This document shows positions 5,823 to 62,203 of a stretch of DNA of 64,000 bases, piece by piece. Made by a program: the position numbers and the translations under genes. A model generated the notes under the pieces. That model was not told where the DNA came from and did no database searches. It saw only the letters and a program-made list of their open reading frames with translations. Positions within the stretch are counted from its first letter, which is position 1; every line of letters begins with the position of its first letter. Source of the stretch: Dryococelus australis (lineage: Eukaryota > Arthropoda > Insecta > Phasmatodea > Phasmatidae); assembly GCA_029891345.1 (NCBI GenBank), contig CM057005.1, positions 60,219,760 to 60,283,759 on the forward strand. Direction: 5' to 3'.

Positions 5823-7575
5823 GTAACTTTTTCCGGTGAAGAGCGTCCTTAAGTACAGAATAGCTCAAGAGGGGATCACCTTACGCTATTCAGGGCTTCG
5901 AACCAATTGATTACTTTTTCGGCGGTCATAAATTGTCTGTCTCGAACTACCACCCTCCCGACCTTGCCAGGTGCGCGTGACTCCTTTGTGATTATGACCA
6001 CACAGGGACTCCACCCATACACGACTTTAAAGATTTAACTAAGCCGATTAAGGTAATGAATCGCGCGACTTCTAAATGCTTAATTTATTTCTTTCTGAAG
6101 AGAAGGATTCTTCATCTATCTCCAACACAAGAATGAACCATTTCCTAGTAGTGCTATTTTTAATGTGACTCACGAAAATACGCAGGTGTCAAAGACCAGC
6201 ACAAATAAATCGATCAGGAAGCACTCGTTAGGTTGTATAATGTTCTAAAGTACACGTCTTTAAATTATCGGTCGCGTTACAGTAAATTGCATTACTAATT
6301 GTACTAACAGTATATTTACGATATTCTCGAAACTCTACGAGAATAAAGTTTTCCAGTAACATTAATGTTAGTCACTGTTTAAGTAAACAACTTTAATGTC
6401 TTCCGTTAATATTTACCTGTAGGCCTATTTTAGCAGGCCACGAATATTAGAACTTAATTATTCCGTTGTTGCGTGGCAAACTGTTTATGGTGTATTCATT
6501 GTTTTGATTATGATAATATTAGGCCTAGAACTTACTTCTTTTTGTAACCTGTTACAAAATTAAATAGGTTCTAATATTTGCATAATCGATCAAATAAATA
6601 ACACACAAATAATTTGCCACGTAATAACTAACTTCAAATATATGTCACCTGCTGAAATAGTTATATGTAATTATGTTACACATACAAGCTAATTATGTTA
6701 CACATACAACAGATGGAAATCTCGGTCAGTAATTTATCAACTAAAACAAATTAAGTGTCTGAAGATGATAAAGATGCAGGCATAATAAAAAGTTTTGACA
6801 AAAACGAATTAATGTTCTATGCTCTTTGTGATCTATAATTCGTACACACGTGTACTTGGAAGAGTATTTTCCCGGTGCTGTTGCACCAGGTGTCTTTGGA
6901 TAAAAGATATTCGGTTTATAATGAAATCTTATGTTTCAAATGTTGTATTTGTAAAACATGTAATGACGGTTTCCGGGATATTAAGCTCATACGTTTGTAT
7001 TAACGTCACGTAAATATTTTGCATTTATTTTGAAATGTTTTCGCCATAGAAATATTTTCGTCATAGAAGTGTATTCTTAGATATATCTACAGTGTTAATA
7101 TTAGTGCATTACTTTCCAGAATATTTACCCGTGAAAATGATAACTGCATGTTTTAATTTGGTCTACGAAAAGTTTATATTTTGTATATAGGCCTGACATA
7201 ATCCTATCAATTATTACAGCTATAGGGGTCTGTAAACCTGGTGCATCAACTGCATTTCAGTGTGTTCAAAATCCATTCTTTAAAGCGAAATTATTAAACG
7301 TGCGCCCAGTGAGCTGGTGTACGAAAATAACAAACACTTCATACGATGCCTATAGATTACATTCCAAAAATGACGCACGTTGGACACACTATTTCGGGAC
7401 ACTCCAAAAGAGGTGAAATAGCTTTATCTCAGCACTGTATCTCAAATTATTTGGACTTGAAACACACTAAAGTACCCGAGGGAACTGCATCGAACCTTGC
7501 TACGGAATTCGCACCAATAAATATGATAGGATCACCGCTTGAATTCCCATAGCTATACGCGTCACGACGAGAACA
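5823..7575. other. No gene seen; AT-rich DNA
   Basis: AT-rich sequence with no recognised repeat family and no convincing reading frame. The open frames at 6819-7013 and 7346-7552 are short and lack domain features. Confidence 0.4.
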
Positions 7576-7655
7576 CAAGAGCCTTGCGCGTAGAGGCGAT
7601 GGCGCACTTGATGCGTGTGTCAGAGTCTCCCTTATAGCTCCCGTGGCCCCAGCCG
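7576..7655 (+). repeat. Shared 75-bp module, copy 2
   Basis: GCCTTGCGCGTAGAGGCGAT at 7581-7600, then GCGTGTGTCAGAGTCTCCC and a diverged TATAGCTCCCGTGG. It matches the module at 456-531 and elsewhere. The surrounding element was not identified. Confidence 0.5.
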
Positions 7656-7814
7656 CAGGTAAACAAGCCCCATTTAACCCTCACGCGAAAAATGTCCGAA
7701 AACGCGTATATATTGCAACTTCATGAAACCTATCCATTCGCCCGTACACCGCAGTAAATCACTGCTAACTATTTCAGGAATCGATCGTGCAAACCAATAC
7801 CATTTATCGATAAT

Positions 7815-15871: not shown

Positions 15872-17459
15872 CAGCTATAGTATGAAAGTGCGACGTGCCT
15901 CCGAGCCGGGAGTGTATGAGAGTCGGGAGCCTGGGCGCTTGTGCGACGTTAAGCGACCAGCTAGAAGAGCAACGGGTCGCGCGGGAAGTGGCCAGCAGGA
16001 GGAATATCTGCGACCTGCGAGCATCACAGCAGTGAAGGGTGCGACTGGCAGGCTGGACTATTGGACTGGATGCGTGGCTGAAAGATGTTAAACGACGATG
16101 GCAACAGACAGACTGAACGTGTATTAATGATGAACATGAGTTAATTGACAAAAAGAAAACGGAGACATTGAGGAGGACGTTAATTGGAGTTGAAATAACG
16201 TTAAATATTGCCCACATTGAGAAACAAAAATAATTTAATGGTGTAAATAATACCTGTGTGAATAAATTAGAAATTCAATTTATTTCTTTTATTTTTATTA
16301 AGACCTCCGTCCCTCAAGAATTTCATAAACGCCCCTCGGGCATATTGCAACAGTGGGGAAACATGTTTTTCGACACCATCGTATGCAAGCTTCTAAAAAC
16401 TGAAGAGTCACCTAGTTAACAAGATAATAATAATTTATTAGATAAATGGTACTATCTAATTTTATAAATGACGGCAGAATACACAAATACAAAACCGTGG
16501 AAATATAATGTGAAGAAGGGGGGGGGGAAGGAAACAGGAATACCTGTCATATCTTCAATAATTGCCAGCGTCTTTCATGCATCAGTGTACAGGCGCAATG
16601 AGAAGCGATGAATCGTATTTTTTGCTACAAATCCCGGCTACCTTTCTTACATTGGTTCAGGAAATATTCAAATGCAAGAAAATTTCCCGATTTTGTTTAG
16701 TAGCGATGCTCAGATTTTCTATATTCGCAGCCTGATATGCGATAAGTTCCCCATAATGTCTATAAGGTTAAAACTTCCATTAGATTTTAGGAAGTTCACC
16801 CATAAATATCTGAAACCAACATGCCATTAAATGTGTTTCTACTAAGCTAATTATTACTACAATGTCTTCAAAACACGTAATGTCTGTGCTTGTATTAAAT
16901 TCTTTGAATATACGGGGAAGGAACTTTTCAAAGTTTAATTTGAAAGTGCTGATGCAGATGCGGAACAGCCTTTAACACACAACACAATGTTACATCTTTT
17001 TTTTCGAAGTTTTCTACTTTGTTTATTTACATTTCAAATTTCGAACTCAAAATATATTAACTTAGTCGTTATTCGAATGTCTGTACATCATAATATAACG
17101 AATGTTATGTAATGTAACATCATAACGAATGGAATAACGTTTTTGGCTGAAATTAACTGAAGTAATCTTGTTCCAGAAATTTACCAATATTAATGAATGT
17201 CCGAGTATTTATTTTTCTGTAGCTAACTGGTTGAACACTACCGTTAAACAGATTGGAGTTAATTATAGTGACTTGATCCTTTCTGATGTGCCGTAATTCC
17301 AGGACAGTAACCGGACGATAAGAGTTCAATCCTCCTTCAGGGCACAAATGTTCAGCTCCAGACCCAGATCTGATTAGTTTAAAGCTAGTTTGTTATTAGG
17401 ATGCCTTGGTACCTAAGTTGACCCCTTCATAGCCTTGAGCTGAATTAATGGCGGGTTGT
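15872..17459. other. GC-rich block then AT-rich DNA, no gene seen
   Basis: A GC-rich block at about 15885-16100 is followed by an AATAAA-containing, AT-rich stretch to about 16300, then plain AT-rich DNA. Frames at 15795-16217 (minus) and 15882-16091 (plus) overlap on opposite strands without a domain. The pattern could be a decayed repeat end or a gene tail; I cannot tell which. Confidence 0.3.
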
Positions 17460-17461
17460 TA

Positions 17462-17891
17462 AAGGCCGTTCACCATAAAGTGAGCACTTTTAAAATCAAT
17501 CTTAGAAAAATAGGTCACTTCCCAGGCCTGCATATATTTTAACGGGCGCACTGAGTGACATACGCCGTGTAAAGTTGGTAATTATAGCATATAAAGTTTT
17601 ACCATATCTCAACGTTAAATATAAAGTGTTAAGTAATCATTTGTGCTAACTTAAATTATTTCTTCCGTTTACTGTTTTTTTTTTTTTTAATTTATCAATT
17701 CTAAAAATGACCAGATTGGTAACATATTTACTTTTCTAATAATTCCACAGCTTCTCCTGATCGACGCATGTATACAGTGATGAGACCCGTGACAATGATA
17801 ATTTTACATAAGGCGGAGGAATACACAACGTGCATACAAGTAGATCTTAAGCAGGGCTTTCAAAACTGCTCATCGTAGCATGAACGGTCTA
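17462..17891 (+). mobile_element. Family A MITE, complete copy
   Basis: Starts AAGGCCGTTCACCATAAAGT and ends CATGAACGGTC before TATA. It contains all family landmarks in order: GCATATATTTTAACGGGCGC, GAGTGACATACGCC, AAAGTTGGTA, CTTTTCTAATAATT, GACGCATG, ATTTTACATAAGGCGGAGGA, GTGCATACAAGTAGATCTTA and GCAGGGCTTTCAAAA. Flanked by TA. It has no coding capacity. Confidence 0.85.
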
Positions 17892-19094
17892 TAGTAAGCA
17901 TTTTCCTCGGACATGCAGTACCAAAACAAAACAATGAAAGATTGCACACGTATATATATACCGGAAGAGTGAGCAGATATTTATAAATTAGTCCTTTTTC
18001 GATTCATATATTTATACACGGCCTTAGAATTTTGCTACGTTTGGTTATTTCAGAAACGTTGAACATATATTTGTAAGTAGGCCTATCATTTTGTCGATTG
18101 TCCACTGAAGTGTCCTTCTACCCAGAAAAAAACATATAGATCGGCCGTTTTCGCGGCAATATAACACACTTTAGAGTACTTCAGTAACATAGAGGAAACT
18201 TTAATTTTTATTACGTCTCAAAGTAACTGAGCAGCTATTTTCTAGTCCCATATTTATACGCTGCACATTTTCAAGACTGCGCGTTAGTTGCAGACCTTTA
18301 TATTTAAAAAAATATTCAAATGACCATTTTTAAATGTGACAATTTTGCATTTTTGCTACGTTGCTTCGGGCGCTGAAACAAGGGAAATAGTTACAATCTA
18401 GCAGTTAGAGTCGTAAAAGGTAATATATGTAATATTAATTAATTCCTACGACATGTATTTCTAAACACAAAAAGCTTTACTGATGAGTTGGTTTCAATAA
18501 CTAAGTTTTGAAGCCATTTCTATACCGTGCATTAAAAACATAGGTAAAAAATTCCCCCATGAAAATTTTTATTATTTTCAAGTTAGCACCTATTACGCTT
18601 AACAGCTTTAATCCTATACTTTATTTATGAAAAATAAGCTGTTACTCGAAATAATGAGGAGCTATTAACATGTCATGTCGCGTGACCGAAAAGATTTGGT
18701 ATCGTACTTTGGTAACCCGATTACACGAAAGTTTCTACTTCCAAATTAAAAGAGTAGTTTAACTCGCTTATTTTGTAATTAGTGACGAAAAACTTTTGCA
18801 TTAATTTTTATTTTCCACGAAACCATTTAGTGAATAAATCTGAAAACAGGTCCGTAACTTTTCGCGGGTAAAACTTATCTCCCCCAACCTTCTTTTTCCA
18901 CCCCTTTTTCACAATAATCACCCATCTGAAGCCCTAATATAGGACTGATTCTTGGGTTTTTTTTTTTTTTTTTTTTTTTTTAAGAATGGGGACTTACATA
19001 GAAACTTCTAAATTATAAATAGGCTATTTAGCTTTACGCGTGTCGATATTCAAAGAGATTAATAATTTATATCCGATAGTACAGTCACTGAAAA
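17892..19094. other. No gene seen; AT-rich DNA with poly-T
   Basis: AT-rich throughout, with a 20+ base poly-T at about 18958-18981. I see no repeat family or protein-like frame. Confidence 0.4.
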
Positions 19095-19848: not shown

Positions 19849-20238
19849 GTATATTAGCGATTTATTCGCACATCATGCAATTAAACCTTTGAAAAAACAC
19901 CCCATGTAAGTTATGACGTGTTTGGTTTTTTTTTTTTAAATAAATATGGCGTGTATCACAAGCGTTGTATACTTGTGTTAACATAAAAGTATCTTATTTT
20001 TGGTTAAAATAAACTTTCAGATACATTTTGTCGATAAACGATAATATTTCATTGGCAACTAAAATGAATTAAACAGAGAGAAAACATGTATGTTGGCAAT
20101 GCGCAGTGAAAAATTAGTTCTTTTCCAAAATATTATGCTAAATGCGCACGTCTGGTGAGCTTTTCTAAGCTTTGTTTGTAATAGGAGTAGAAATATCCTG
20201 GAAGTGGAACTTCATCAGGACATCAGAAAAGTTGGAAG
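19849..20238 (-). mobile_element. Family C MITE, copy 2
   Basis: Minus-orientation copy with the landmarks AATTAAACCTTTGAAAAAAC, CACCCCATGTAAGTTATGAC, TTGGCAATGC, TTTTCTAAGCTTTGTTTG, GAAATATCCTGGAAGTGGAA and CATCAGAAAAGTTGG. Its last bases are replaced by a family A copy that begins immediately afterwards. Confidence 0.75.
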
Positions 20239-20240
20239 TA

Positions 20241-20383
20241 TAGACTGTTCACGGTAAACTGAGCACTTTTTAAAGACCTTCTTAAGATCTACTTCTATGT
20301 ACGTTTTGTATTATTCCCTTTATGTAATTTACTATGCCACGGGCTTCATCCCTTTATTCACGTGTCGATCAAGTAAAACTGAT

Positions 20384-20441
<58 letters not shown>

Positions 20442-20693
20442 TTATTCCAATCGCTCAGTTCTACACTTCGATGCATAAAAAAAATAAAGCTTAAGAAATA
20501 AATTAAGGTATTACAAATGGTTACCTAACACTTTTTATTTGACGTTAAGATATGGAACTACTTTCCCTCCAACGTTACCAACTTAACTGGGCGTATGTCA
20601 CTCAGGGCGCCCGTTAAAATATATGCAGGTAGAGGTAGTGACTTTCTTCTGAGCTTGTTTTCAAAAGTGCTCACTTTATCGTGAACAGCCTTT
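20241..20693 (-). mobile_element. Family A MITE with internal (TA)n expansion
   Basis: Inverted copy from GACTGTTCACGGTAAACTGA to CTTTATCGTGAACAGCCT. The interior landmarks are present: ACCTAACACTTTTTATTTGA, CGTTAAGATATGGAACTACT and GTCACTCAGGGCGCCCGTTA. A (TA)n run at about 20384-20437 interrupts it. It abuts the end of a family C copy, so it probably inserted there. Confidence 0.85.
20384..20437. repeat. (TA)n microsatellite inside a MITE
   Basis: About 54 bp of uninterrupted TA dinucleotides within the family A copy. Confidence 0.95.
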
Positions 20694-20784
20694 AACCGCA
20701 AATGGAGTACAGTGTGTGTACTCCATTTTAATGTGTTCTGCATGTTTTACGGTCGGCCCCAGTTCACCTTCAGGAGTCTCCCTA

Positions 20785-21312: not shown

Positions 21313-21334
21313 TTAAACTTACGCCCGAGGATTA

Positions 21335-21762
21335 AAGGCTGTTCACGATAAAGTGAGCACTTTTGAAATCAACCTTAGAAAAATGTCACTGCCCATGACT
21401 GAATATACTTCAACGAGCGCACTGAGTGATATGCGCCCGGTAAAGTTGGTCAAGATGGAGGAGAGAGTAGTTCCATATATTAACGTCGAAAAAAAGTGTT
21501 AGATGACCATTTGCGATAATTTTAATTATTTATCTCGCTATCTCGCTTTCTGTATTTTGTAATGCCGGGAAGTGTAAAAATGAGCGGATTTATACAATAT
21601 TTACATTTATAAAAATTTCACTGTTTCACTTGACCAACGCATGGATAAAGCAACGAGGCCCATGACAATGTTAATTTTACATAAGGTGGAAGAATATACA
21701 ACATGCATTCAAGTAGATCTTTAGCAGGGCTTTCAAAAGTGCTCATTTTACCATGAACAGCC
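21335..21762 (+). mobile_element. Family A MITE, complete copy, TA-flanked
   Basis: A 428-bp copy from AAGGCTGTTCACGATAAAGT to CATTTTACCATGAACAGCC. TA lies on both sides (21333-21334 and 21763-21764). It is a good reference copy for the family. With the truncated copy at 21046-21312 it forms an inverted pair. Confidence 0.9.
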
Positions 21763-21775
21763 TATACCTGTGATT

Positions 21776-21836: not shown

Positions 21837-23749
21837 ATCCTTCACCACTAATTCCAGGTAAGAGCTGCGAGTGCAAGAGATAGTAAAGTCTACTGGTCTA
21901 AATTGTTGGTCTTTTCAGATACGTGTATTTTACTTTCGTTAGTCTCGTGGTTTTTGCGAATGAACCTGATCACAACCAGGAAAGGTGACATTTTCTTACG
22001 TAGTAAAGTAGGCTTAATTACATCCTTACCAGTAGTAGGAGCGAGGCCATTCTGGCCCACTTCATTAGAATGATAGAGGATGGAGGGGAATTGCTTAGTT
22101 TGCATATGCAAATGAGATTTAATAATTTTTTATTGATTAATTCTATTAATTAAATTGATTAATCAGATAATCGATTAGTAAATAATGTTTTGATTTCAAT
22201 TTATTATATTAAAGAATTCTTTGATATCAACATTTTTTATTATTTTATTGGTGTCATAAGGGTGATATTGATGGAGCAGGATCGATGTGTATTCTGTGAC
22301 GTCCTGTGGCCGACTTACCATAGTAGTGAGGTAATGGTTTAAATAGGAGTTAATGTTGGTGTAAGAGTGGTATAAGGAACATTTTATGCGTTTTTAGTTG
22401 GTGACATATGCTAATAATGAGCAGGTTGCTCTCTGATTGCATACTGAGGATTTAGGTACGGGAGAAATGGTGGGCGAAGTAAATATTTTTTTAATGAAAA
22501 GAGATTTTCAAATAGGTTACTGAACTTCAATCCTCAATCAAAAGACTTTAACTCTCTGACTGAAATGCCACAAGCTGTTCGTACTGTAGAGTTTCATTGA
22601 AATAATATATATTTTTTCTGGATACAGTATTTTTAATAAAAATATTTCACATGCCTTCAGTTATTTTTATCATCGTGTAGTCTGTTGAAATTTGTTAAGC
22701 ATTTTGGGGAATATTTCTTAGTAATATGTTACATCTACTTTGGTCATTTCTATTTAGTGGGCTTATCTCATAGTTGATATATATGTATAATATATACACA
22801 CTCTCTGTTTTACACTGATTGAAAACTACCTGCATGCTCGGTTCGCAAACATGTCTTGCAATAAAATTTGTGGATAAGAGGGTTCACTCTGAAACTTTAA
22901 ATGTAAAGGGCTAAAGATAGTTTTAAATTACTTTGTTAGGGCTTTATGCAGAAGCCCTTTTAACATTAGACTTTGGAATTGATGTACAGCATTTGAGCTC
23001 TCTTGTTAAGGATGGTATAACATTTAAAAACTGATATTTGTTTAGGCATGAATGCACCTTAGTATTTTTCTTGATATTGTGATTGACTATTTTTTTTTAT
23101 TCTTAAGACACTAGTTTGTGTTTTCTGGAAAAAAAACTGTCTGTTCACTGTCTCATAGTATATATTATTCACAGTGACTGAATTTCACTAATTTTCATAT
23201 GACATTAAATTTTTCACTATTTGTTGACAAGAACCAGTCACAATTTTTTCTCTTTTTTATTTATCACAGTAATTTTTTTCTTGTTTCTTAAGGTAAACAA
23301 AAACCTTTTTGTAAAGAGAACAAGGTATAATAAATATGCAAATTTGTCCAAGTATCCACCTTTCTGGTATATTTGGGCGTTAGAAATTGCAAAATAAACT
23401 TATAACAGACATAATTTGTGTTTAGTAGAAAAATATATACATTAGTTAGCTTCAAAAAATCGTATCAGGGTTTAAAATACAGTATTGTAATGTGTTAATT
23501 TCAATTTTGAAATGCAGTGTTTTGCTCAAATATATGTTCATTTGCTATAAATGTTAGTTGGTCGCCTTAGATATGAAGATTGGTGTAAAAACTTTTAGAG
23601 AATATTTATGTAAGTACGTTTAAAAATGTTTGAATAGCAAAACTTTTTAATAGCAATTTGTTTGGTTTCAAGTTGTTTGGTATCAGAAAACATTACCTAA
23701 CAAAAATGTTGGGTGAGAGTTTCCTGGACTTGAAATATTTTTTTATGGA

Positions 23750-24560
23750 ATAAATGTGCTTTGCTGGAGATGTGATATTCTCCTGGATGGGGCAAGCCTG
23801 CCTCGAAAGGCTTGGGTCGGCAGGCATGTGCTGGTCGGGCGAGATGGTTTCCACGGGCAGGCAACTGGTGTCCGCCGACTCTCCCACCTGTCGCAAGGCG
23901 AGAGATTGCGATTTACTCTTTGTCAGTATCGGGAGCCGTGCTGGGGAGCTGGTGTGAGGTTGGACTGCACAGGCTTTGTTGAGCGCTCGGCAGACGATAG
24001 CGAATGGTGTATTGTCGGCCTCGCGATGTGGAGTTCTTGGAGTGGCATGGGTGGGGGGAAGTGTCGGTCATAATTTTTCGGGTTGGTGTTTAGCACAGGC
24101 AAAGGCTTCCATGCAGGGAAAGGGGTGGGTTGATAAGGTGGTGTCAGAGGAATGTGCATGCCCAGTAGAACTCTTCAGGGAAAGTCGGGGGCAGGGTTGG
24201 GGATGGTCTCCAATAGCTGGTACTTTCTGAGTGCAGCAGACGAAACTGTAAACTCTGTGTTCCTCCTTGTTCTGTGTTGTCTTCATGTCGCTCGAAGCCG
24301 TTAGATGAATGATCTGTTGCTTTTTTTTGGTGGTTTGAGAGGTTTCTCCTTGCTGACTTCACATTGGAGTAGGTGGGGTGAAACAGCGAAATGGGTGGTC
24401 TAGAGCATCATGAGAACTTGCAGGTATATCTTCGACCGTGTCTTGCGCGCGGTAGAGGAGGCAGGGGCAGGCAGAGAAATTTTCAGGTTTCAAAGAACTT
24501 TCAGTTACAAACGAGCTGCCGGCCTGTCTCGTTGGGTACCACAAGGCATTGAACATTGAT
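23750..24560. other. GC-richer core of the 3.6-kb element
   Basis: The GC content rises sharply here relative to the flanking AT-rich interior. Overlapping frames of 65-105 codons exist on both strands; none has a recognisable domain, start context or consistent codon bias. It might be a decayed gene carried by the element or a separate insertion. I cannot decide from sequence alone. Confidence 0.3.
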
Positions 24561-25314
24561 CACATCCCATACACTTACAGTTTTCTCTCACATGTTCGGA
24601 TAAATACATCGGTTTTTATTTAATTATGCGATCATTGAGAGTTATGCGACTATCGATAAAATTTCGAGGAATTACTGCGATTTTAACGTGCAGTAAGAGG
24701 TAGGTCAATTTCTTGGATAGTTGTGTGTGGCTAAATTAATTTCTTGGTGTATTCATTTAGTTTTGTAAGGTTTTAGGTAAAAGATTGTTCATCTAGTTTA
24801 ACCTATATTTTGTTGCATGTTTACAGAGCCGATGAGGGGGAAGCGAGCAAAGTATGTGTACTTTTGATGAGAGGGGATCTTTGTCAGTGGAGGGGGGTTT
24901 ATGATACCTGTAGTAATGGTGAGATATTATTTTATATTGGTTGGGCACTTGTTTAGCTTAATTAAATTTGTTTAATGATAAGTTAGCATTTGAAATATAA
25001 TATATTTCGTTAAAATATTAATATAAATTGCATGATTGAAGTCGGTTTAATGTTATCTGATTAATCATTAACCAGAAGACTTTAAAGTTCGATAACCTAT
25101 TTGAACATATATTTTAATTTAAAAAATATTTACTTAGCTGAAAGAAAACATTTTTCCATGTCCAAATCTTCAGTGTGCAACCAGAGAGCAGCCTGTTCAT
25201 TATTCACATGTGTCACCAACAAAAAAAAAAAAACATAAAATGGTCCTTATACCACTCTTACACCAACATTTGCTCCCATATAAACAATTAAAACCCACTC
25301 CTCTGGTAAGTCCA

Positions 25315-25326
25315 CCCCCCCCCCCC
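25315..25326. repeat. Poly-C run
   Basis: Twelve consecutive C within the right arm of the large element; one of about a dozen such runs in the window. Confidence 0.95.
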
Positions 25327-25708
25327 TACGACGCCACAGAGTACACATGGATCCTGCTCCGCCAATATCACCCTTATGAGAACAATAAACTAATTAAAAA
25401 ATTGGTGTTAAAAAAATAATTCTTTAATATGAAAAAAATTTATCTCAAAACATGCTTTTCTTAATCGATCAATCCAATCAATCAATTTAATTAATCAATC
25501 CATCTAATGAATCGAGTTAATGAATCAAACAATTATTTATACTCATTTGAACATGCAAATTAGGCAATTATGCAAACTAGGTCGCTCCATCCTCATGCTA
25601 TTCTAATAAAATGGGCCAGAATGGCCTCGCTCCTATTACTATTACCTTTCTGTTTTAATGCCTTAGTGAATTGAGTATGATCACACAAATCTTTATACAT
25701 TAGTGATC

Positions 25709-26113
25709 TAGATTTTTCACGATTAATTGAGAACTTTGTGAAAGAAACCTTCGGAAAATGTCACTGCCCCTAACTGCATATATTTTTAACATGCGCCCAA
25801 TAAAGTAGGTAATGCCGGGGGGGAAAGTAGTTTCATGTCTTAAACGTTGAATTCATAGTGTTAGATAAACATTTGTGAATACAAAAATAATTTTTTCTCC
25901 TTGCATTTTTTTTCCCGTGTTAGTGTAAGAATTTGCAAATTCGTAAAGTATTTACGTTTCTAATAATTGAATAGTTTCACTTGACTGGTGTGTGAATAAA
26001 GTGATCAGGGCCGTTGCTATGTTAATTTTACGTACCGCGGAAAAATACACAATACGCACGAAAGTAGAATTTAATCAGGGCTTTCAAAAGTGCTCAGTTT
26101 ACAGTGAACAGCC
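25709..26113 (+). mobile_element. Family A MITE, diverged copy
   Basis: The left end is decayed (TTTTTCACGATTAATTGAGA). The landmarks AAAATGTCACTGCCCCTAAC, ATGCGCCCAATAAAGT, CTTAAACGTTGAATT and GGGCTTTCAAAAGTGCTCAG are clear. It ends ACAGTGAACAGCC. It is more diverged than neighbouring copies, so probably older. Confidence 0.75.
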
Positions 26114-28030
26114 AATACTGTCTAATGACCACAATTTTTTTTCTTTGAAGCGTCGCAAAATATTTATTTACGACTCCGTAAAGGCGAAGCAATCATTTAC
26201 AAAGGTAGGATGAATGCAAAACATAGAGCGCACACCAGGGAATTTTTTTTCTCGCGAACTTTACCCCCCCCCCCCCCCATTATTTTTGACGGGGGAATAT
26301 TGACTGTTCTACGCGGGGAAAGTGAGTTATACTGGGAATGGTACGCGGCCGTATTCCGAGGACCGGACAGATACAGAGGGCATCTCACTTCCCGCATAGA
26401 AGTTTTAGCGGTAATATTTCATTTCAGTGTTTCGCGCAGTGGTTGGAAAAGGTGTCTGTGGCGGGTGGGGGGGGGGAGGGAGGGGGACGTGGCGGACTAG
26501 TTCGGAATGAAACAGAGCCGGTGTAGAGATATATATCGCGCGAGCCGTATCAGCTGGAATGACCACGGTTTTGCTCACATAACCGACGACCTGCCATTTG
26601 TATCGCTCGTGACGCGACGTGTAAACACGCACATCTACTCCTGCGCCTGTTCCTCCCCCTCCCCCCTACAAGTGTCGTAAATTACACTAAACGCGCAGAT
26701 AACGTCGGATGCGAAAGGTCGAGCCAAAAAAAAAAAAAAAACTGAAACAAGAATGACACGGATGTGTACGCGCGCGCTCGCACGGCTCGATATGGGAGCA
26801 TGTCTATGCGCATCCTAACTGATAAATATGAGAAAAAAATATCGTGCAGGATTCCAGTTTTACAGTAGTTAAAGCCAGCTGGTAAAATACTGAGTTGTGT
26901 GAAATCTAGACATTTTATATTTCATACGTATATACATATATGCGAAGAGGAAATGATGGAAGTTACATACTGGTGGGGTGGGTACACATTATTCATTGTG
27001 CAATCTATCGCCGTTTCCTCGTCGTCATGTCATTTGCACGACGCTAAAACAATGATGGAGCTCTTGGAAACACGATTGTTTTGTCCGCTGTAGTTTAATT
27101 AGCCGAACCGTTCAAAGAAACAACCGATACGGCATCTTCTTGGGTTCAATGAACTTTTGAGGAGTTCTCGAAAACACATGTTCCCGTTTGCACCCTCTTA
27201 GGGATTGAATTTTAAAATACATTTTCTTAGTGGGCGGCTCCTGGATCCTAAGGGGAAGCCATTTCTATGTTTTCGTGCTTTTATGTCAAGCAGTTTGGCC
27301 TGTGCGTTGTTGAGTGAGTGATGCCAGTTAGTCAGTCGGTCACTCCACATTATACATAGAGTTATAGGGCGGTTAGTTAACAAGTTGTAGCAGTGATTTC
27401 AGCCTTGTTACCAATTTGAAAAACTCTTGCCATAAAGCCTCTTCTTAAAATTTAAAAAATCCCGGTGATCGATTTTAGATTGATGTTTCATTACGTCGCA
27501 CTGAGAATATTGAGCGGGAGGAATGATGATGATGACTGGATCGAGGTCGCATACGCTACCTTTTTATCGGCTTTAGTGACGTAGCAAAAAAAAAAAAAAA
27601 AAAAAAGCCCGACATTCAATGCATACTGAAACAGAAATTTCAGGCGTGTTTTTTTTTCCACTCCGACATCGTTTCACATATAAATGCCCTACATACCTGG
27701 CCAACTGTTAAAAGCTGACGGGTCGGTTCTATTAATATGGATTTTCCTACAAAATAATTTGCATTACAATTGTTTATTTCGTTTCTATAGGAGTTGTATT
27801 CAATCATGATTTCACAATTTAATAGCACAAAGTCATATTAACGTTTGTTGCATAACCATTGTTACTTAACAAGTCTTCGTAGCGTTTTTATTTGAAGTTT
27901 TATTAAGTTATGCCACTAAAACGCATTTGGTAAAAATCGGTCGACAAATTCCATAACTTTTCACAGACCCTAACTTACCTGCCGAAATGAGATAATTCAC
28001 ACTGTAAGAAGAGTCACGATCTCCTTCAAG
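26114..28030. other. No gene seen; homopolymer-rich DNA
   Basis: Holds a 15-base poly-C (26264-26278), a G-rich patch at about 26460-26490 and poly-A runs at about 26727 and 27586. The many overlapping short frames (26197-26632) are translations of these runs and of GC-richer DNA on both strands. No domain was recognised. Confidence 0.4.
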
Positions 28031-28227: not shown

Positions 28228-29417
28228 ACTTCAAGACCTATATAAAATCGTACAAGGATGTTTTTCGCGATTTCAAAAAACTAACAGATAATAAGGAAAA
28301 CATTTTTTTTTTTTTTTTTTACGGTGGCCCCTGGATTTTTGTAACATATCTTTAGCTAATCATGCCTAAAAATGAACTAAGACAAGGCCTTGAAGTTACC
28401 CCTGTTTAATTTCCTGCAGATGATTTAGTTAATTGCATTTGTTCATTATGAAAACAGTAGAATTTTGACTTTAACATGTAATTTTACAAAAACCCTTGGT
28501 GGCCTATAAATATTTTCAACGTACTCCATTGCTACACTATGTTCTCCCAGACAGAAAACCAAGTCGGAGTCATAAAACGTGCCTACACGAAAGCTAGCCG
28601 AGAGTGGACGTAGTCAAAATATATACGTAAAACGTATACTAAATCCCATCAGGATAATTAAACGAAAAAACTGAAAAACCGAAAGGACTACTCGTTCTTA
28701 GTGTTTGTTTCATGACTCGAAACTTGGTTTTCCGTGATGACATTCTGTGCCAATACAGTATGTTTGTACAGCCCCATTGAAAGAATCTTTCAAGACAAAA
28801 AGCCACAGATTTTATTTTTCAAAAGATAAAATCCCGAATTGCTTATGCACAAATAACGAAAACTAACCTACCCAAAGAAATGAGATGATTTCTAAAATTA
28901 AAGGAATTCTTGCAAATTTTTTATTTGTCGCTACCCCTGAATTTTTTTAAATATAAATTTGCTAGGCATGCTTTAAATGTAAACTAACACAACACTTGTA
29001 CATTACAAAAAGAGTAGAGTTTGACAAGTCAGTTTGCCAAGAAAAAAAACACGCGTTATAAACAAAATTTCTCTGAGGAAAAAGCAGTCGCAGATAATGT
29101 CTACAAGTTGATTAGTATAAGGTACAGTTATAAAATAAATAAAAAAAAATTTTTTTCGTGGTTAACGTCAGGTTTTTTTTTTTCTCTCTCTCGCTCTCTT
29201 TCTCTCTCTCTCAAAAGATGTAATCGCGAAGTGCTTATGCTGCGCGAATAGGCTACACGAACGCTTCGCCACTCCACGTCGCGTAGCGTTGTACCGAGCG
29301 ACGGAGCGAGCTGGTCAGCCTTACGTACTCTTATCGCCTCACAACTATTAATGAGGAAGCACGTCCCAGGCTCAAGTGGACCTTCCGACTCCCACTTCGC
29401 GCCTCTGGACCGGCGCG
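28228..29417. other. AT-rich DNA with unnamed diverged repeats
   Basis: Poly-T at about 28303-28320 and a (CT)n patch at about 29177-29213. Two segments (about 28320-28500 and 28915-29035) share a CGNTRNCCCCTG-ATTTTT block and later words, suggesting a diverged repeat. The frame at 29128-29520 runs through (CT)n and the 38-bp repeats, so it is not a gene. Confidence 0.35.
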
Positions 29418-29531
29418 GTGACCGACCGGCTCTCATCTGCGCATGCGTGTCGCGTGTGACCGACCAGTTCTCTTCTACGCATGCGTGTCGCGTGTGACCG
29501 ACAGGCTCTCTTCCGCGCATGTGTGTGCAAT
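29418..29531. repeat. 38-bp GC-rich tandem repeat, three units
   Basis: Units start at 29418, 29456 and 29494 with GTGACCGACCGGCTCTCATC and continue with TGCGCATGCGTGTCGCGT. Two further diverged units lie at 30245-30310. Each unit holds the palindrome GCGCATGCG, close to the NRF-1/ewg binding motif. Confidence 0.85.
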
Positions 29532-30236: not shown

Positions 30237-30244
30237 CTATGCGC

Positions 30245-30310
30245 GTGACCGACCGGTTCTCTTCTGCGCATGCGTGTTACCGACCGGGCTCATTTCTGCG
30301 CACGCGCAGC
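30245..30310. repeat. 38-bp GC-rich repeat, two diverged units
   Basis: GTGACCGACCGGTTCTCTTC with TGCGCATGCGTGT, followed by a unit that has CGACCGGGCTCATTTCTGCG. It is the same family as 29418-29531. Confidence 0.75.
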
Positions 30311-30387
30311 TACCTTCCCCGCTTGGGGTGGCGTTCCAAAACATTAAGGTCTGTTTCCGATTAAAGACTGAAAAATTAAGACGTGTA

Positions 30388-30811
30388 AAGGCTGTTCACG
30401 ATAAAGTGAACACTTTTGAAATGAACATTTAAAAAATGTCACTACCCCTGCATGCATATATTTTAATGGGCGCTCTGAGTGCCATTTGTCCAGTAAAGTT
30501 GGTAACGGTGGATGGGAAGTAGTTCCATATCTTAACGTCGAATAAAAAGTGTTAGGTAACCATTTGTGATTACTTGAAATTAGTTCTTTCGATTAATGTT
30601 TTTTTTTTTAATCCAGCGAAGTGTAAAAATGAGCAGATTTGTACAGTATTTATATTCTTAATACTTTCACAATTTCATTTGACCGACGGATGAGTAAAGG
30701 GACGAGGCCTATAGAAATGTTAATTTTACACAAGGCGGGGGAATACACAACGTGCTCACAAGTATATCTTAAGCAGGGCTTTCAAAAGTGCTCATTTTAC
30801 CGTGAACAGCC
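30388..30811 (+). mobile_element. Family A MITE, complete copy, TA-flanked
   Basis: A 424-bp copy from AAGGCTGTTCACGATAAAGT to TTTTACCGTGAACAGCC, flanked by TA at 30386-30387 and 30812-30813. All interior landmarks are present. Confidence 0.9.
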
Positions 30812-30868
30812 TATACTTATTTCCCGTATATTTAACGAGTCATCAGCTTTGCAGTTTGTGAATGATCA

Positions 30869-46383: not shown

Positions 46384-46515
46384 CTGAGAGAAAAGAAACA
46401 AAGTTCGTTTTCCGCAACTGAATATAAGATAATGGCGATGGAATGTTTTGTTGCTGAAACCAAATTATTTTGTTGTTTTTATTTGGTTTCCCAAAACAGT
46501 GAGGCTTGGTATATA

Positions 46516-46939
46516 AAGGCTATTCACGGTAAAATGAGCACTTTTGAAAGACCTGCTTAGCATCTATTTGTATGCACGTTGTGTATTCTTCCGCCTTATG
46601 TAAGCTTAAAATTGTCATTGACCTCATCACTTTATTCATGCGTCGGTCAAGTGAAACTGTGAAATTATTAGAAAAGTAAATATTTTACAAATCTGTTCAT
46701 TTTTTTTTACTCTTCGATGCATTAAAAAAAACAAAGAGAAATAAATAGTTTTAAATTATAAGAAGTGGTTACCTAACACTTTTTATTCAACGTTAAGATA
46801 AGGATGTACTTCCCATCCATCGTCACCAACTTAGCTGGGTACATGTCACTCAGGGTGCCTGTTAAAATGAGTGCAGGTAGGGGCAGTGACTTTTTTCTAA
46901 GGTTGATTTCAAAAGTGCTCACGTTATAGTGAACAGTCA
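46516..46939 (-). mobile_element. Family A MITE, complete inverted copy
   Basis: From AAGGCTATTCACGGTAAAAT to CGTTATAGTGAACAGTCAT, preceded by TA and followed by TA. All interior landmarks are present, including ACTTCCCATCCATCGTCACC and TGCAGGTAGGGGCAGTGAC. Confidence 0.88.
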
Positions 46940-46978
46940 TTAGGTAGGTAGGCAGCTCTTAACGACTCGTCGACAGCG

Positions 46979-48434: not shown

Positions 48435-49050
48435 TTAAAGGGCCTGGGAAATGTTGTAGTGAGTAGAAGGAGCGGTAGGTTCCTGGACCACTTGTAGAAT
48501 GACATGTTGATGGAGCGGATAACCGATTGTTCGATATATCTAATATTCGATAGAGTAGATTAATATCTGATTAATCGAATTAATTAGTATAATTAATCAA
48601 ATAAATTAAAGAATTCTTTAATTAATTTTTTATTAGTTGGATATGAAATTTCTTTGTTTTTCATTGTTGTTGAAAGGGTTAGGGGTGATATTGGCGGAGC
48701 AGCATAGATGTGTTCTATGTGATTTTCTGGATCCGACTGACCAGAGGGATGGGTTGTAATTACTTATAGAAGTTGATGTTGGAGTAAGAGTGGTATAAGT
48801 AGCATTTTAAATTGTGGATGGAGTGAGAGCCAGTGGCGGGTTACCGGACCACTAGGCGAGTGAAGGGTGGATGGAGCGAGAACCAGCGGTGGGTTCTTGG
48901 ACTATTGAGCTATGAAAAGGCCTATACCTAGTCCCATAAGATTAACCTGGGGGGTGGGGGGATTTCTGGGCCACTTAGCGAGTGAGGAGCGGATAATCGA
49001 TTGTTCGATTAATCGATAATGAGCGAGGGCACTCATGTCACTTCTGGACC
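48435..49050. repeat. Single arm of the 3.6-kb element with tandem units
   Basis: 48505-48810 matches an arm of the element at 22035-25648 (GTGATATTGGCGGAGCAGCA, TTGATGTTGGAGTAAGAGTG). Around it, units resembling GGATGGAGNGAGANCCAGYGG followed by GGACCACT and GCGAGTGA recur at about 48455-48500, 48817-48865, 48870-48910 and 48965-49000. ATCGATTGTTCGATTAATCG-like words mark both edges. Confidence 0.6.
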
Positions 49051-49915
49051 ACTACAATTTACGTTCAATTAGCCAACTGAAATAAGTATGAATCATTAAA
49101 AAATTACTTTAATCACGGGATTACCACACACAACATTAAATCGAATTAATATAAAGACGTTATATTAAAAATTACTTTAAATCATGCGTAACCACGAGAC
49201 AAATTCATTAAAACGACTTACCCCGAACACGACAGGATGCAACACAAAATTTATATTAATGCTGTAACGAAATTCCTTAGCAATATTTCAGTTTAATGAG
49301 TTGTCGCTTCCAATTTCATGTCTCGTTTGAAGCACCCTTTGGTACTTGCTTATTCTTGTCGTTTGCCACTTGAAGTGTTATTCGGGGCTGTTCTGTGTTG
49401 TTTGGTGCCAGAAACGTACTGCGTTTGTTTCATGATAAATAATTGTTTTCTTATGGTCTTTTGTTGTATATGGGTACAGAGGAAATGTGAATGTTCGTAT
49501 TATGAGCATTCAGCAAACGCTGTAAATAATTAGACCACAGCCACCAAGGATCATCTACTGTGGAATTTATATTCAAGGACGCAAAATTAGCGTGTGCCCT
49601 CGTTCCCTTTCTCTCATTATGTTTCTACCATGTTCCTTTCAATACTCTTCCCTTATAGTGTGCAACACCTTCGTAACTATCGTTTATCTCACAGATTTCA
49701 GCAAAGGCAATGGGGGATAAAAGTGAGAAAAATTCTTCATTAAGAGTACAAGTCTCCTGCATAGAAATACAGACACTGTACAAATATTCAATAGAAATGA
49801 AACTGTTTATATAAGTTACGAACGAAAATAATTTAAATATTAATTTAAAATAATTTTACTGTATAATTTTTGTCGGTGTATTTTTTATTGAGTAGTTAGT
49901 GATAAAAATAGTATA
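49051..49915. other. No gene seen
   Basis: AT-rich, with short local echoes (ATTAAAAAATTACTTTAAT recurring at about 49095 and 49165). The frame at 49318-49533 is 71 aa, hydrophobic and cysteine-rich; no domain recognised. Confidence 0.35.
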
Positions 49916-50337
49916 AGCTGTCCATGGTAGAATGAGCACTTTCGAAAGCCCTGCTTAAGATCTACTTGTATGCACGTTGTGTATTCTTCCATCTTGTGTA
50001 ACATTAACATTGCCATGGGCCTCACTACTTTATTCATGTGTCGGTATATCGAAACAGTGAAAGCATTACAAAAGTATTTATTTTATCAATCTGTTCATTA
50101 TTACTCTTCGATACATGAAAAAAAAAAAAAAAAAAAAAAGCGAAGGAAGTAATTTATCACAAATGTTTACCTAACACTTTTTATTCGACGTTACGATATG
50201 GAACTTCTTTCATTACATCGTTACCACCTTCACTCGGCGCATGTTACTCTGTGCGCCCGATAAAATATGTGCAGGTAGGAGCGGTGACTTATTCCAAGGT
50301 TGATTTCGAAAGTTCTCATTTTATCGTGTACAGCCTT
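49916..50337 (-). mobile_element. Family A MITE, inverted member of a pair
   Basis: From AAGCTGTCCATGGTAGAATG to TTTTATCGTGTACAGCCTT, TA on both sides. A poly-A run at about 50120-50138 interrupts the interior. It is followed after about 22 bp by a copy in the opposite orientation. Confidence 0.88.
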
Positions 50338-50359
50338 TACTTAGAAGTACAAGTATCTA

Positions 50360-50780
50360 AAGGCTTTCCATGATAAAGTGAGCGCTTTTGAAATCAACCT
50401 GAGAAAAATATCACTGCTCCTACCTGCATATATTCAAAGAGGTGCCCTGAGTGACATACGCCCAGTAAATTTGGTAACGATGGATGGGAAGTAGTTCCGT
50501 ATCTTAACATCGAATAAAAAGTGTAAGGAAATAATTTCTGATAACTTAAATTCTTTCTTTGGCTTTCTCCATTTTTTCAATGCATCGAAGTGTAAAAATG
50601 AGCAGATTTGTTAAATATTTACTTTTCTAATAATTTCACAGTTTCACTTGACCAATGCATGAAAAAAGAGATGACGCCCATGGCAATGTTAATCTTACAT
50701 AAGGCGGAAGAATACACAACTTGCATACAAGTAAATGTTAAGCAGGTTTTTCAAAAGTGCTCATATTACCGGCAATAGCC
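50360..50780 (+). mobile_element. Family A MITE, direct member of a pair
   Basis: From AAGGCTTTCCATGATAAAGT to CATATTACCGGCAATAGCC, flanked by TA. With 49916-50337 it makes a palindrome of about 865 bp. Confidence 0.88.
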
Positions 50781-50966
50781 TATAACACACTTGACTGCAC
50801 TGTTGTGAAAGTCTATAGTTTGTGTACCTTCAGCATGAGCACTTCAGAAGCTACACAGGCATTTGTTTGCAGTATGGATACATAACTGATCTTGGAAAGT
50901 AATTTTTAACACAGTCGGTAGGTGCTGAAACCGCGAACTGCTGGATGCATATTGATGTGGTATCGC

Positions 50967-52815: not shown

Positions 52816-52969
52816 GATTGTTTCGAGGATATTGTAGTGCCCGTTTGCGGAATTAATTTGAAAACAATTCCTTGAGCGAGATATGTAAACATTGCGCAAA
52901 GGTTATCACTTTCTGTTTACAAAAAATGTTACGCAAGGTACCAGTTTTTATTAATAGGTTGTCGTTATA

Positions 52970-53378
52970 GATTGTTCACGGTAAAATGAGCACTTTTGAA
53001 AACCCTGCTTAAGATCTACTTGTATGAGCGTTGTGTAATCTTGCGCCATATATAAGATTAGCATTGTCATGGACCTCATCACTTTATTCATGCTTCGGTC
53101 ATGTTAAACTGTGAAGTTATTAGGCAAGTTAATATTTTATAGACCTGATCATTTTTACACTTCGATGTATGTAAGAAAAACTGAAAGCGAAGGAAATAAT
53201 TTAAAGTATCACGTCACTTTTTATTCGACGTTAAGATACGGAACTACTTCCCATCCATCGTTACCAACTTCACTGGGCGCATTTCACCCAGGGCGCCCGT
53301 TAAAATAAATGCAGGTAGGGGCTGTGACTTTTTTCTACTGTTGATTTTAAAAGTACTTACTTTATCGTGAACAGCCTT
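52970..53378 (-). mobile_element. Family A MITE, inverted, small internal deletion
   Basis: From GATTGTTCACGGTAAAATGA to TTTATCGTGAACAGCCTT, TA on both sides. It lacks the ATGGTTACCTAAC segment present in other copies (jump near 53208). Confidence 0.85.
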
Positions 53379-54141
53379 TACCTATTTTATTGGCTTGTAA
53401 ACTTGCGACGTTACTAGAACACCCCCCCCCCCCACACACCGGTTCTGAATTTTGGCTTTAAAATCGAGTAAAAAACTGACGTAAGCGTGTGTTATACGAT
53501 ACACATGTCAATTCTGCACGGAATATTTAAGTCACCTGCCTACACGGGAAACTAATAACCGGATGCATAAACAAGAACAGGACTGCTTAAACTGCTGGAA
53601 ATTTCCAAACTATTGAAATGCATGCGAAGAAAATGTACTTCGTTTTAAGTAAGGAAGGACTTTTGTATGTGCCACTTGGCAGATAAATAATCATTGTTAC
53701 AAAATATACTCGTACCAAAATTGTATTTTTACACCTATTTTGTTACGCGTTAGAAAAAAAATGATATGATAAAACCCTTTAATTTGCGTTAGAAAAACTC
53801 ACAACACAAATTTTGGTTAACTCTTGTTGATAGATTTTTAGGAAAAAGGAATTCATCATTTTTTTTTTGGAACTGGTTTCATTCTTTTGTGAAATGTTAT
53901 TTTCCTTATATTGTCGTACTTTTCTCAGACTACTAATTCATATCACAACGGAGAAAGTATATAATATGCCAAATATGTAATAATAATACACATATTTTCG
54001 CCTCTTAAACGTTCTTAAAACAAAAATGTTTTCTTAATTTAAATTGCCAGTAATATTTTTAAAAATATGTCTTGTACAGCAAAATACTTCTTCGAGTTAA
54101 GGTGTATTAGTCTTATCTGAAAGTATTCGTTTATATGTTTA
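53379..54141. other. No gene seen
   Basis: AT-rich, with a 12-base poly-C at 53422-53433 next to CACACACC. No repeat family or gene recognised. Confidence 0.4.
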
Positions 54142-55160
54142 AAGGCTGTCCATGATAAAGCGAGCACTTTTGAAATTAACAGTAGAAAAAAATTACTGCC
54201 CCCACCTGCATATATTTTAACGGGCGTCCTGAGTGACATGCGCCTAGAGAAGTTGTTAATGATGAATGGGAAGTAGTTTCGTTTCTTAAAGTTGAATGAA
54301 AAGCGCTAGGTCCCATTTGTGATAATTTTAATTATTTCTTTCTCTTTCTGTTTTTATTTATTGCATCAAAGTGTAAAAATTAGCAGATCTGTACAATATT
54401 TACTTTTCTAATAATTTCAAAGTTCACTTGACCGACGTATGAATAAAATTATGAGGCCCATGACAATGTTAATGTTGCATAAGGCGGAAGAATACACAAC
54501 GCGCATACAAGCAGATCTTAAGCAGGACTTTCAAAAGTGCTCATTTCACCGTGTCAGTGGCGTGTAGTGATTTTTTTTACAGGGTAAACAATATAATAGC
54601 CCAAAATATCTGAGTCTTTTAAAAAACATTTGCTCGTGCCGGTCTGTGGTTCCATTTTCAATTTCTTTTTACAAACGCAACATTCAACTTTGCTTACCCT
54701 CGACATGTATTTACCGTTTTATAACACATAACATTAGTTATAAAAGCGGAAACGAAATGAATGTAGCCTAATACTGAATATTATTTAGAGAGCACATTAA
54801 AAATTACAAGAAAACTCCCGAACACTTTCATCCACTTTCCAAGGAAATGAGGATTGGAGGACGCAAACAGAACGACTGCTTACCCTGCCGCGTTCCTTCG
54901 GCAGGGTAACTCGCTTGCGAGTTAGATTCACCGCTAGTCGCTCACGTTTGTGGAAATAAATACTAGATAGCAGCACTATGCGTGTACAGTACGGGAGTTA
55001 CGAAAACTGTTTCTCGACTCGGAAACGGGGCTCAGGCTTAAACGTGTTCAAATTTAAAGTTAAGGCGGAAACTATGAAGGGTCAAGCATTTCCAATATGC
55101 ATGGGGTAAGCACTGCTTACGTTGCGTCTACGGAATATACGCCACTGACGTGAATAGCTG
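54142..55160 (+). mobile_element. Family A MITE interrupted near its right end
   Basis: 54142-54553 carries family A from AAAGGCTGTCCATGATAAAG to TTTCACCGTG; 55153-55160 (AATAGCTG) completes the end next to TA. The 595-bp element in between inserted with a 4-bp duplication CGTG. Confidence 0.85.
54554..55148. mobile_element. Non-autonomous element with TCAGTGGCGT ends and 4-bp TSD
   Basis: Begins TCAGTGGCGTGTAGTGA and ends with the exact inverse ACGCCACTGA. CGTG lies at 54550-54553 and again at 55149-55152, and the interrupted host element reads correctly when one CGTG is removed. Interior: a palindrome CCTGCCG..CGGCAGG at about 54884-54907 and AT-rich DNA; no transposase. A 4-bp duplication fits Chapaev-like or Sola-like elements, but CAGTGGCG ends also occur in hAT elements, so the superfamily is open. 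Confidence 0.82.
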
Positions 55161-61410: not shown

Positions 61411-61800
61411 AACGCTGGTACAACTCCTGAAGATCTACGGACAAGTTTAACCTCGAGTAACTACACGTTCTTCTCGACGCTGGTACAACTCCTGAAGATC
61501 TAAGGACAAGTTTAACCTCTAGTAACTACACGTTCTTCTCGACGCTGGTACAACTCCTGAAGATCTACGGACAAGTTTAACCTCGAGTAACTACACGTTC
61601 TTCTCGACGCTGGTACAACTCCTGAAGATCTACGGACAAGTTTAACCTCGAGTAACTACACGTTCTTCTCGACGCTGGTACAACTCCTGAAGATCTACGG
61701 ACAAGTTTAACCTCGAGTAACTACACGTTCTTCTCGACGCTGGTACAACTCCTGAAGATCTACGGACAAGTTTAACCTCGAGTAACTACACGTTCTTCTC
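61411..61800. repeat. 65-bp minisatellite, six units
   Basis: Units start at 61411, 61476, 61541, 61606, 61671 and 61736, exactly 65 bp apart: GACGCTGGTACAACTCCTGA, AGATCTACGGACAAGTTTAA, CCTCGAGTAACTACACGTTC, TTCTC. Units differ at only two or three positions (the second has TAAGG and CTCTAG; the first begins AACGC). The partial start GACGCTC at 61801 marks the end. Confidence 0.98.
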
Positions 61801-62203
61801 GACGCTCTTTGTTACTTTGCCCTCTTCGTCGTGTCAAGACCCGCGGGATTTTCGTACCGACGGTTATAAAAATATATTTCCCTCCTTATCGCGGTATATC
61901 ATATTCCACGGTTATAATAATGAAAATGGAGAATCGCCGAAATCTTCCACGGGGTATTTTGTAACAAATTCGAACGCCACCCTTATAGACGGAATTTTCG
62001 TGACAACTCGTGAGGGTTATTGCCGGTAGTAGTACCGATAGCAAGTTCGATCACATCTTTGACAACGTGTTAATATTGCATACCACTTCTTTCCCCCCCC
62101 CCCCCCAACACCTCCTGCCAAACAACCAATGACTATGCAACGTTTTTGAAACAAGCATATATAATATGCAATGTTTGTGTACATGTGCAGTTTGCTTTAT
62201 AGG
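61801..62203. other. No gene seen
   Basis: A 70-aa plus frame (61817-62029) has no recognised domain. A 14-base poly-C lies at 62093-62106. Confidence 0.4.

Follow-up and report, generated by a model that had tools for sequence, protein, structure and literature searches.

What is the 3.6-kb structure with long inverted arms that stands out in one stretch of the Dryococelus australis genome? The window studied here, meaning the whole stretch of DNA that was analyzed, covers 64,000 nt (positions 60219760-60283759 of its contig, CM057005.1). An initial annotation had described there an element with inverted arms and a GC-rich centre, without a clear family, and had considered it the best candidate for something undescribed. 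Self-comparison of the window upheld a single element with long inverted arms, spanning 22031-25640 (3,610 bp); the element itself is thus real, but the ends first proposed, 22035 and 25648, were off by a few bases. The arm pair, 22031-22530 (+) against 25640-25082 (-), showed 74.1% identity over 560 aligned columns (E = 1.4e-94), and a second self-comparison recovered this same arm pair as several ungapped pieces, with the outermost 41 bp at 93%. Global alignment of the two arms gave 80.8% identity over 499 ungapped columns. The arms are about 500-560 bp long: the left one, beginning with AGTAGTAGGAGC, was placed at 22031-22551 (+) from the arm pair, its copies elsewhere and their ends, and the right one at 25082-25640 (-). 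The hexamers bordering the element, CTTACC (22025-22030) and ATTACC (25641-25646), are equal at five of six bases.

The centre at 23750-24560 (+) has, as initially described, a distinct base composition, with 52.5% GC; its flanks have 29.7% (one side) and 32.9% (the other), and the whole window has 38.4%. A search of 10 of the element's ORFs against Pfam, those of the core included, returned no family above its cut-off, and a PyrI_C match below its own cut-off (0.007) was taken as chance. Rfam at gathering thresholds and a tRNA scan both gave zero matches in the window. The third, single arm that had been reported at 48505-48810 is present and longer than claimed, occupying 48460-49172 (+) as one part at about 48460-48813 and another at 49074-49172, past an interruption. 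By eye, this interruption (48814-49073) seems to repeat arm-end-like motifs.

Several other repeats were observed in the window. A repeat of about 430 bp, dispersed and in part self-complementary, is present in at least 10 copies that share roughly 67-80% identity; those at 21333-21767 and 25716-26119 flank the 3.6-kb element in equal orientation, and others lie at 17459-17893, 20238-20695, 30386-30816, 46514-46942, 49911-50339, 50358-50784, 52966-53380 and 54139-54553. The top-scoring tandem array, a 65-bp unit repeated 6.1 times with 98% matches, is found at 61412-61806, and two GC-rich arrays with 38-bp and 32-bp units, alike in their units, are found at 29414-29526 and 30239-30307. The region 568-927 was considered as part of the element family and rejected; since it matches L012 only in a stretch absent from L014, it was taken as another repeat.

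Is the arm found elsewhere, and with what between its copies? A search of the 3.4-Gb genome with the left arm yielded 40 scored places (the window and 39 others) from 2,279 loose candidates, in agreement with the earlier claim that the arm is dispersed, and five pairs among these places were inverted and 7-17 kb apart. We fetched 20 stretches around arm places and then 11 more, which are referred to by L numbers. All 20 stretches of the first set matched the arm and at least some of the interior of the window element, and arms were present in six of the 11 stretches of the second set; another two of these 11, L038 and L039, supplied outer flanks only. The search for relatives with longer interiors, as the initial annotation had advised, was fruitful. 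Besides the window element, the shortest two-ended copy was L009 (7.4 kb) and the longest L014/L015 (17.6 kb), the long ones being L014/L015, L031/L020 and L025/L037 (both 17.2 kb), L029/L016 (16.4 kb) and L032/L021 (about 17.4 kb, its right end falling at the edge of the fetched stretch), and the other two-ended copies being shorter (7.4-11.3 kb). The arms of L014/L015 are about 1 kb long and 84% identical. A further 10 kb (L030, L033, L035) did not reveal a left arm for L017, L022 or L024, and L018/L036 terminates in a truncated arm. The GC-rich core is present in the long copies as well, as part of the segment adjoining the right arm. The middle of the longest copy (L015 388-2300) contains internal repeats that have diverged from each other, about 150-500 bp in size.

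If these copies were inserted as units, their flanks should resemble each other. For 13 two-ended copies, the window element included, we set the end at an AGTAG-like twelve-base terminus, with termini and register picked by eye, and compared the flanking hexamers. Six of the 13 copies had identical hexamers and four more, among them the window copy, had a single mismatch, so that the target-site duplication proposed for checking was seen at five or six of six bases in 10 copies. Among mismatched flank pairs used as control, only 1 of 156 reached five of six and none reached six of six. The results for L011 and L027 depend on the choice of register, with the register fixed, three copies (L010, L031/L020, L028) lacked a duplication, and L032/L021 and L018/L036, which were not readable at both ends, were left out of the 13. 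Target duplications of 6 bp with no fixed sequence are thus found in most of the arm-bounded copies.

How does the window copy relate to its longer relatives? Aligned to L014, it is made of separate blocks that keep their order. L014 448-2754, reversed, aligns with element positions 3540-1286, L014 7008-7400 with 1315-932, and L014 7513-7684 with 693-506. In the window, these blocks correspond to two interior segments common to long copies, one at 22552-23320 (+; L014 about 7008-7684, reverse, in two aligned pieces) and one at 23335-25081 (+; L014 about 998-2754, reverse). Between them, at 23321-23335, the alignment skips about 4.3 kb of L014, which hold conserved, decayed coding pieces that we call the left module. 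A genome search with this first junction (40 places scored of 307 candidates) showed that 19 of the 39 other places cross it and 20 start at it. The 19 include L016, L018 and L019, each of them retaining other parts of the interior, and L016 and L018 are contiguous across the junction. Many copies therefore appear to be without the left module, which suggests a subfamily that multiplied in its absence. As to direction, we infer that a deletion was inherited, rather than that the other copies acquired the module.

The second junction, at 22551-22552 between the left arm and the interior, looks private to the window copy. In a search with it, which scored 40 places from 1,022 candidates, the 39 places other than the window all failed to cross, the furthest reaching 8 bases, and the sequences to its left and right align to L014 and L015 at positions apart from each other. 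Relative to L014/L015, about 9.7 kb are absent at the junction, the polymerase half included. The layout and the sizes point to a second deletion, with no intermediates among the scored copies: 17.6 - 4.3 - 9.7 = 3.6 kb, compared with the 3,610 bp measured.

The initial annotation had named two independent arm insertions as the outcome that would refute its reading. Two insertions of a short arm repeat, facing each other by chance across unrelated DNA, could claim for themselves the solo arm at 48460 and the private junction of the left arm among the scored places, but we hold them to be extremely improbable. The interior segments are shared with other copies, collinear and in unchanged order, and in L014, L020 and L022 one alignment covers the right half together with the right arm that it runs into. 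Moreover, both arms belong to the same end variant (over the outer 41 bp), which extends to the end in just 3 of the 39 other scored arm places. With the interior order kept, the right half contiguous with its arm and the outer flanks matching at five of six bases, two independent insertions are not what is seen.

To what kind of element, then, do the long copies belong? Their right half contains fragments of a family-B DNA polymerase of viral type. The Pfam family PF03175 was recognized in the two-ended 17.2-kb copy L031/L020 (8.6e-13, L031:5955-6590), in the two-ended 10-kb copy that contains L023 (2.5e-7) and in L041 (1e-14), a polymerase place taken without an arm check. The L041 piece shares 36% identity (241 columns) with a 1313-aa polymerase encoded by the 15.1-kb viral contig IMGVR_UViG_3300007522_001028, of which 6,872 bases were covered by the comparison. 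Judging from its family, this polymerase would be protein-primed. Six pieces searched against PHROGs gave two weak matches, one to a DNA polymerase (2.7e-5) and the other to an entry of unknown function (0.0059). A comparison of one polymerase piece with solved structures (E up to 1) had no hit. Stretches resembling Endonuclease_7, one barely over its cut-off, accompany the polymerase in 3 of the 150 ORF pieces of our largest scan. In the left half, a likeness of the left-module proteins to exonuclease-like insect proteins is not claimed here. Neither the polymerase nor the left module was found in the window copy. What this copy retains is its two arms and segments that are non-coding and in part rich in GC.

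The two modules also occur together beyond the fetched copies. From loose first-look candidates across the genome (20,794 for the polymerase piece and 5,417 for the left-module piece), 150 were scored for each. On ten chromosomes chosen by eye, these genome-wide scored lists held 13 polymerase/left-module pairs at most 20 kb apart, compared with 0.23 expected at random; arms were not part of that count. The left module lay upstream on the same strand in 12 of the 13, and 10 of those were 8.9-11.6 kb apart. This recurring layout, even with arms unchecked, bears on whether a cut-and-paste DNA transposon of another superfamily might have received its polymerase from an inserted viral element. No transposase of any kind was recognized, so no enzyme fixes the superfamily, but given a polymerase that is repeatedly found downstream of the left module, we consider such an origin very unlikely.

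The enzyme that integrates these elements is harder to find. Three scans comprised 304 ORF pieces (80, 74 and 150), the last one being the longest 150 of 319 pieces (at least 84 aa) from 21 loci, flanks included. An rve integrase, a packaging ATPase, a C5 protease and a double jelly-roll capsid were recognized in 0/80, 0/74 and 0/150 pieces. Since the polymerase itself was recognized at an equal cut-off in just 7 of the 304 (0/80, 1/74 and 6/150), these absences are weak evidence. Other matches were scattered. A zf-MYST match in two scans (6.3e-6 and 8.8e-6) perhaps reflects a zinc-finger-like stretch in the front part of the polymerase, where a weak one shows, and matches to RT_RNaseH (1.2e-9) and RT_RNaseH_2 (3.4e-13) presumably come from a nested or flanking retrotransposon. 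Single matches among the 304 pieces were to Rhomboid (5.3e-5), Xre-MbcA-ParS_M (0.00083), 7TM_GPCR_Srw, Ureidogly_lyase, zf-Vps39_C, Gag_FV_central, Somatomedin_B, YrhK and DUF5543. A codon-position test on the polymerase, the left module and the GC-rich core was flat in most stretches, even in the polymerase, which served as positive control, and so does not discriminate; we do not present the long ORFs of the core as genes.

Could the parent be something other than a Polinton proper, such as a polymerase-bearing element or an endogenous virus lineage without an rve integrase, relying on an unrecognized enzyme of the left module or on integrases acting in trans? We see this as rather unlikely. 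It would agree with the 0/304 count for integrase, ATPase, protease and capsid, and with a left module whose pieces stayed below the cut-off of every Pfam family. Three alignments of this module had no match among solved structures (E up to 1), and two of the three had none among viral contigs. However, decay limits a search in which the polymerase surfaced in so few pieces, and the combination of 6-bp duplications, a family-B polymerase and long inverted repeats typifies Polintons and viral kin that bear an rve integrase, according to a section of PMC12220804; PolB and integrase also occur together in Polintons in the portion of PMC6431247 that describes them. A bolder version, in which an abundant family of giant, polymerase-encoding transposons without rve integrase is mobilized by an undescribed left-module protein and still makes 6-bp duplications, strikes us as doubtful, and less probable again.

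We therefore file the family, provisionally, as Polinton/Maverick-type, since polymerase, arms, duplication and size fit, with the integrase not recognized. The window element is most likely a dead, non-autonomous transposon of this type, a deletion derivative of a polymerase-bearing parent of about 17 kb. It fits a family that looks abundant in D. australis, and neither its lack of a clear family nor its standing as the best candidate for something undescribed is supported.

The parent, about 17 kb long, would have had inverted arms of roughly 0.5-1 kb at its termini. One half would have encoded the viral-type family-B DNA polymerase, and the other half at least one left-module protein. By analogy with its class, it would have replicated from the arm ends with a protein-primed polymerase and inserted through an integrase making a 6-bp staggered cut. 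A 4.3-kb deletion would then have taken out the left module, and the shortened form would have multiplied, with full copies presumably supplying in trans the enzymes that mobilized it. A later deletion, about 9.7 kb in size, would have removed the polymerase half from the window copy or a recent ancestor. Arm-to-arm K2P divergence came to 0.136 in L014/L015 and 0.225 in the window copy; six other copies gave 0.166-0.216, and a ninth pair, L034/L023, gave 0.255 from only 65 comparable sites. Values of 0.14-0.26 across the nine pairs, the last of which is short, mark the measured copies as old. The copies examined also look dead: the reading frames inspected are fragmented, and in most stretches the codon positions vary to a similar degree.

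What had been the window's largest structure without an explanation is now placed in a known class, and its layout is explained in two steps, by a junction common to many copies and a private one. The absent integrase is the chief lead toward something new. As the family looks abundant, it could potentially serve as a case for how Polinton derivatives move in trans and what integrates them.

As defined in part of PMC12220804, the Polinton/Maverick class has a protein-primed PolB, an rve integrase that typically gives 6-bp duplications, and terminal inverted repeats. A typical length of 15-25 kb, with PolB and integrase, is given in an excerpt of PMC6431247, and a core of PolB, integrase, C5 protease and ATPase in one of PMC3671162. 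Our family resembles this class in its long copies of 16.4-17.6 kb, in inverted arms of hundreds of bases (window copy and L014/L015), in 6-bp target duplications of no fixed sequence and in its viral-type family-B polymerase, here with an endonuclease-VII-like stretch. It differs in that integrase, ATPase, protease and capsid were not recognized in the 304 pieces from decayed copies, and the window copy, at 3.6 kb, has no recognizable coding sequence. The contig IMGVR_UViG_3300007522_001028, which we read as a Polinton-like virus or kin, is likewise close in polymerase and of similar total size, whereas two left-module alignments found no relative among viral contigs. Bidnaviridae, whose genomes are much smaller, share a polymerase of the protein-primed type and long terminal repeats. 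Their polymerase is thought to be Polinton-derived, as put in a passage of PMC4061559. Non-autonomous Maverick/Polinton elements are said to exist in the text seen of PMC6327564, and the window copy is like them in having kept its arms and lost its coding part, with a junction common to many copies. The element is thus not new in kind and belongs to a known general kind of transposon.
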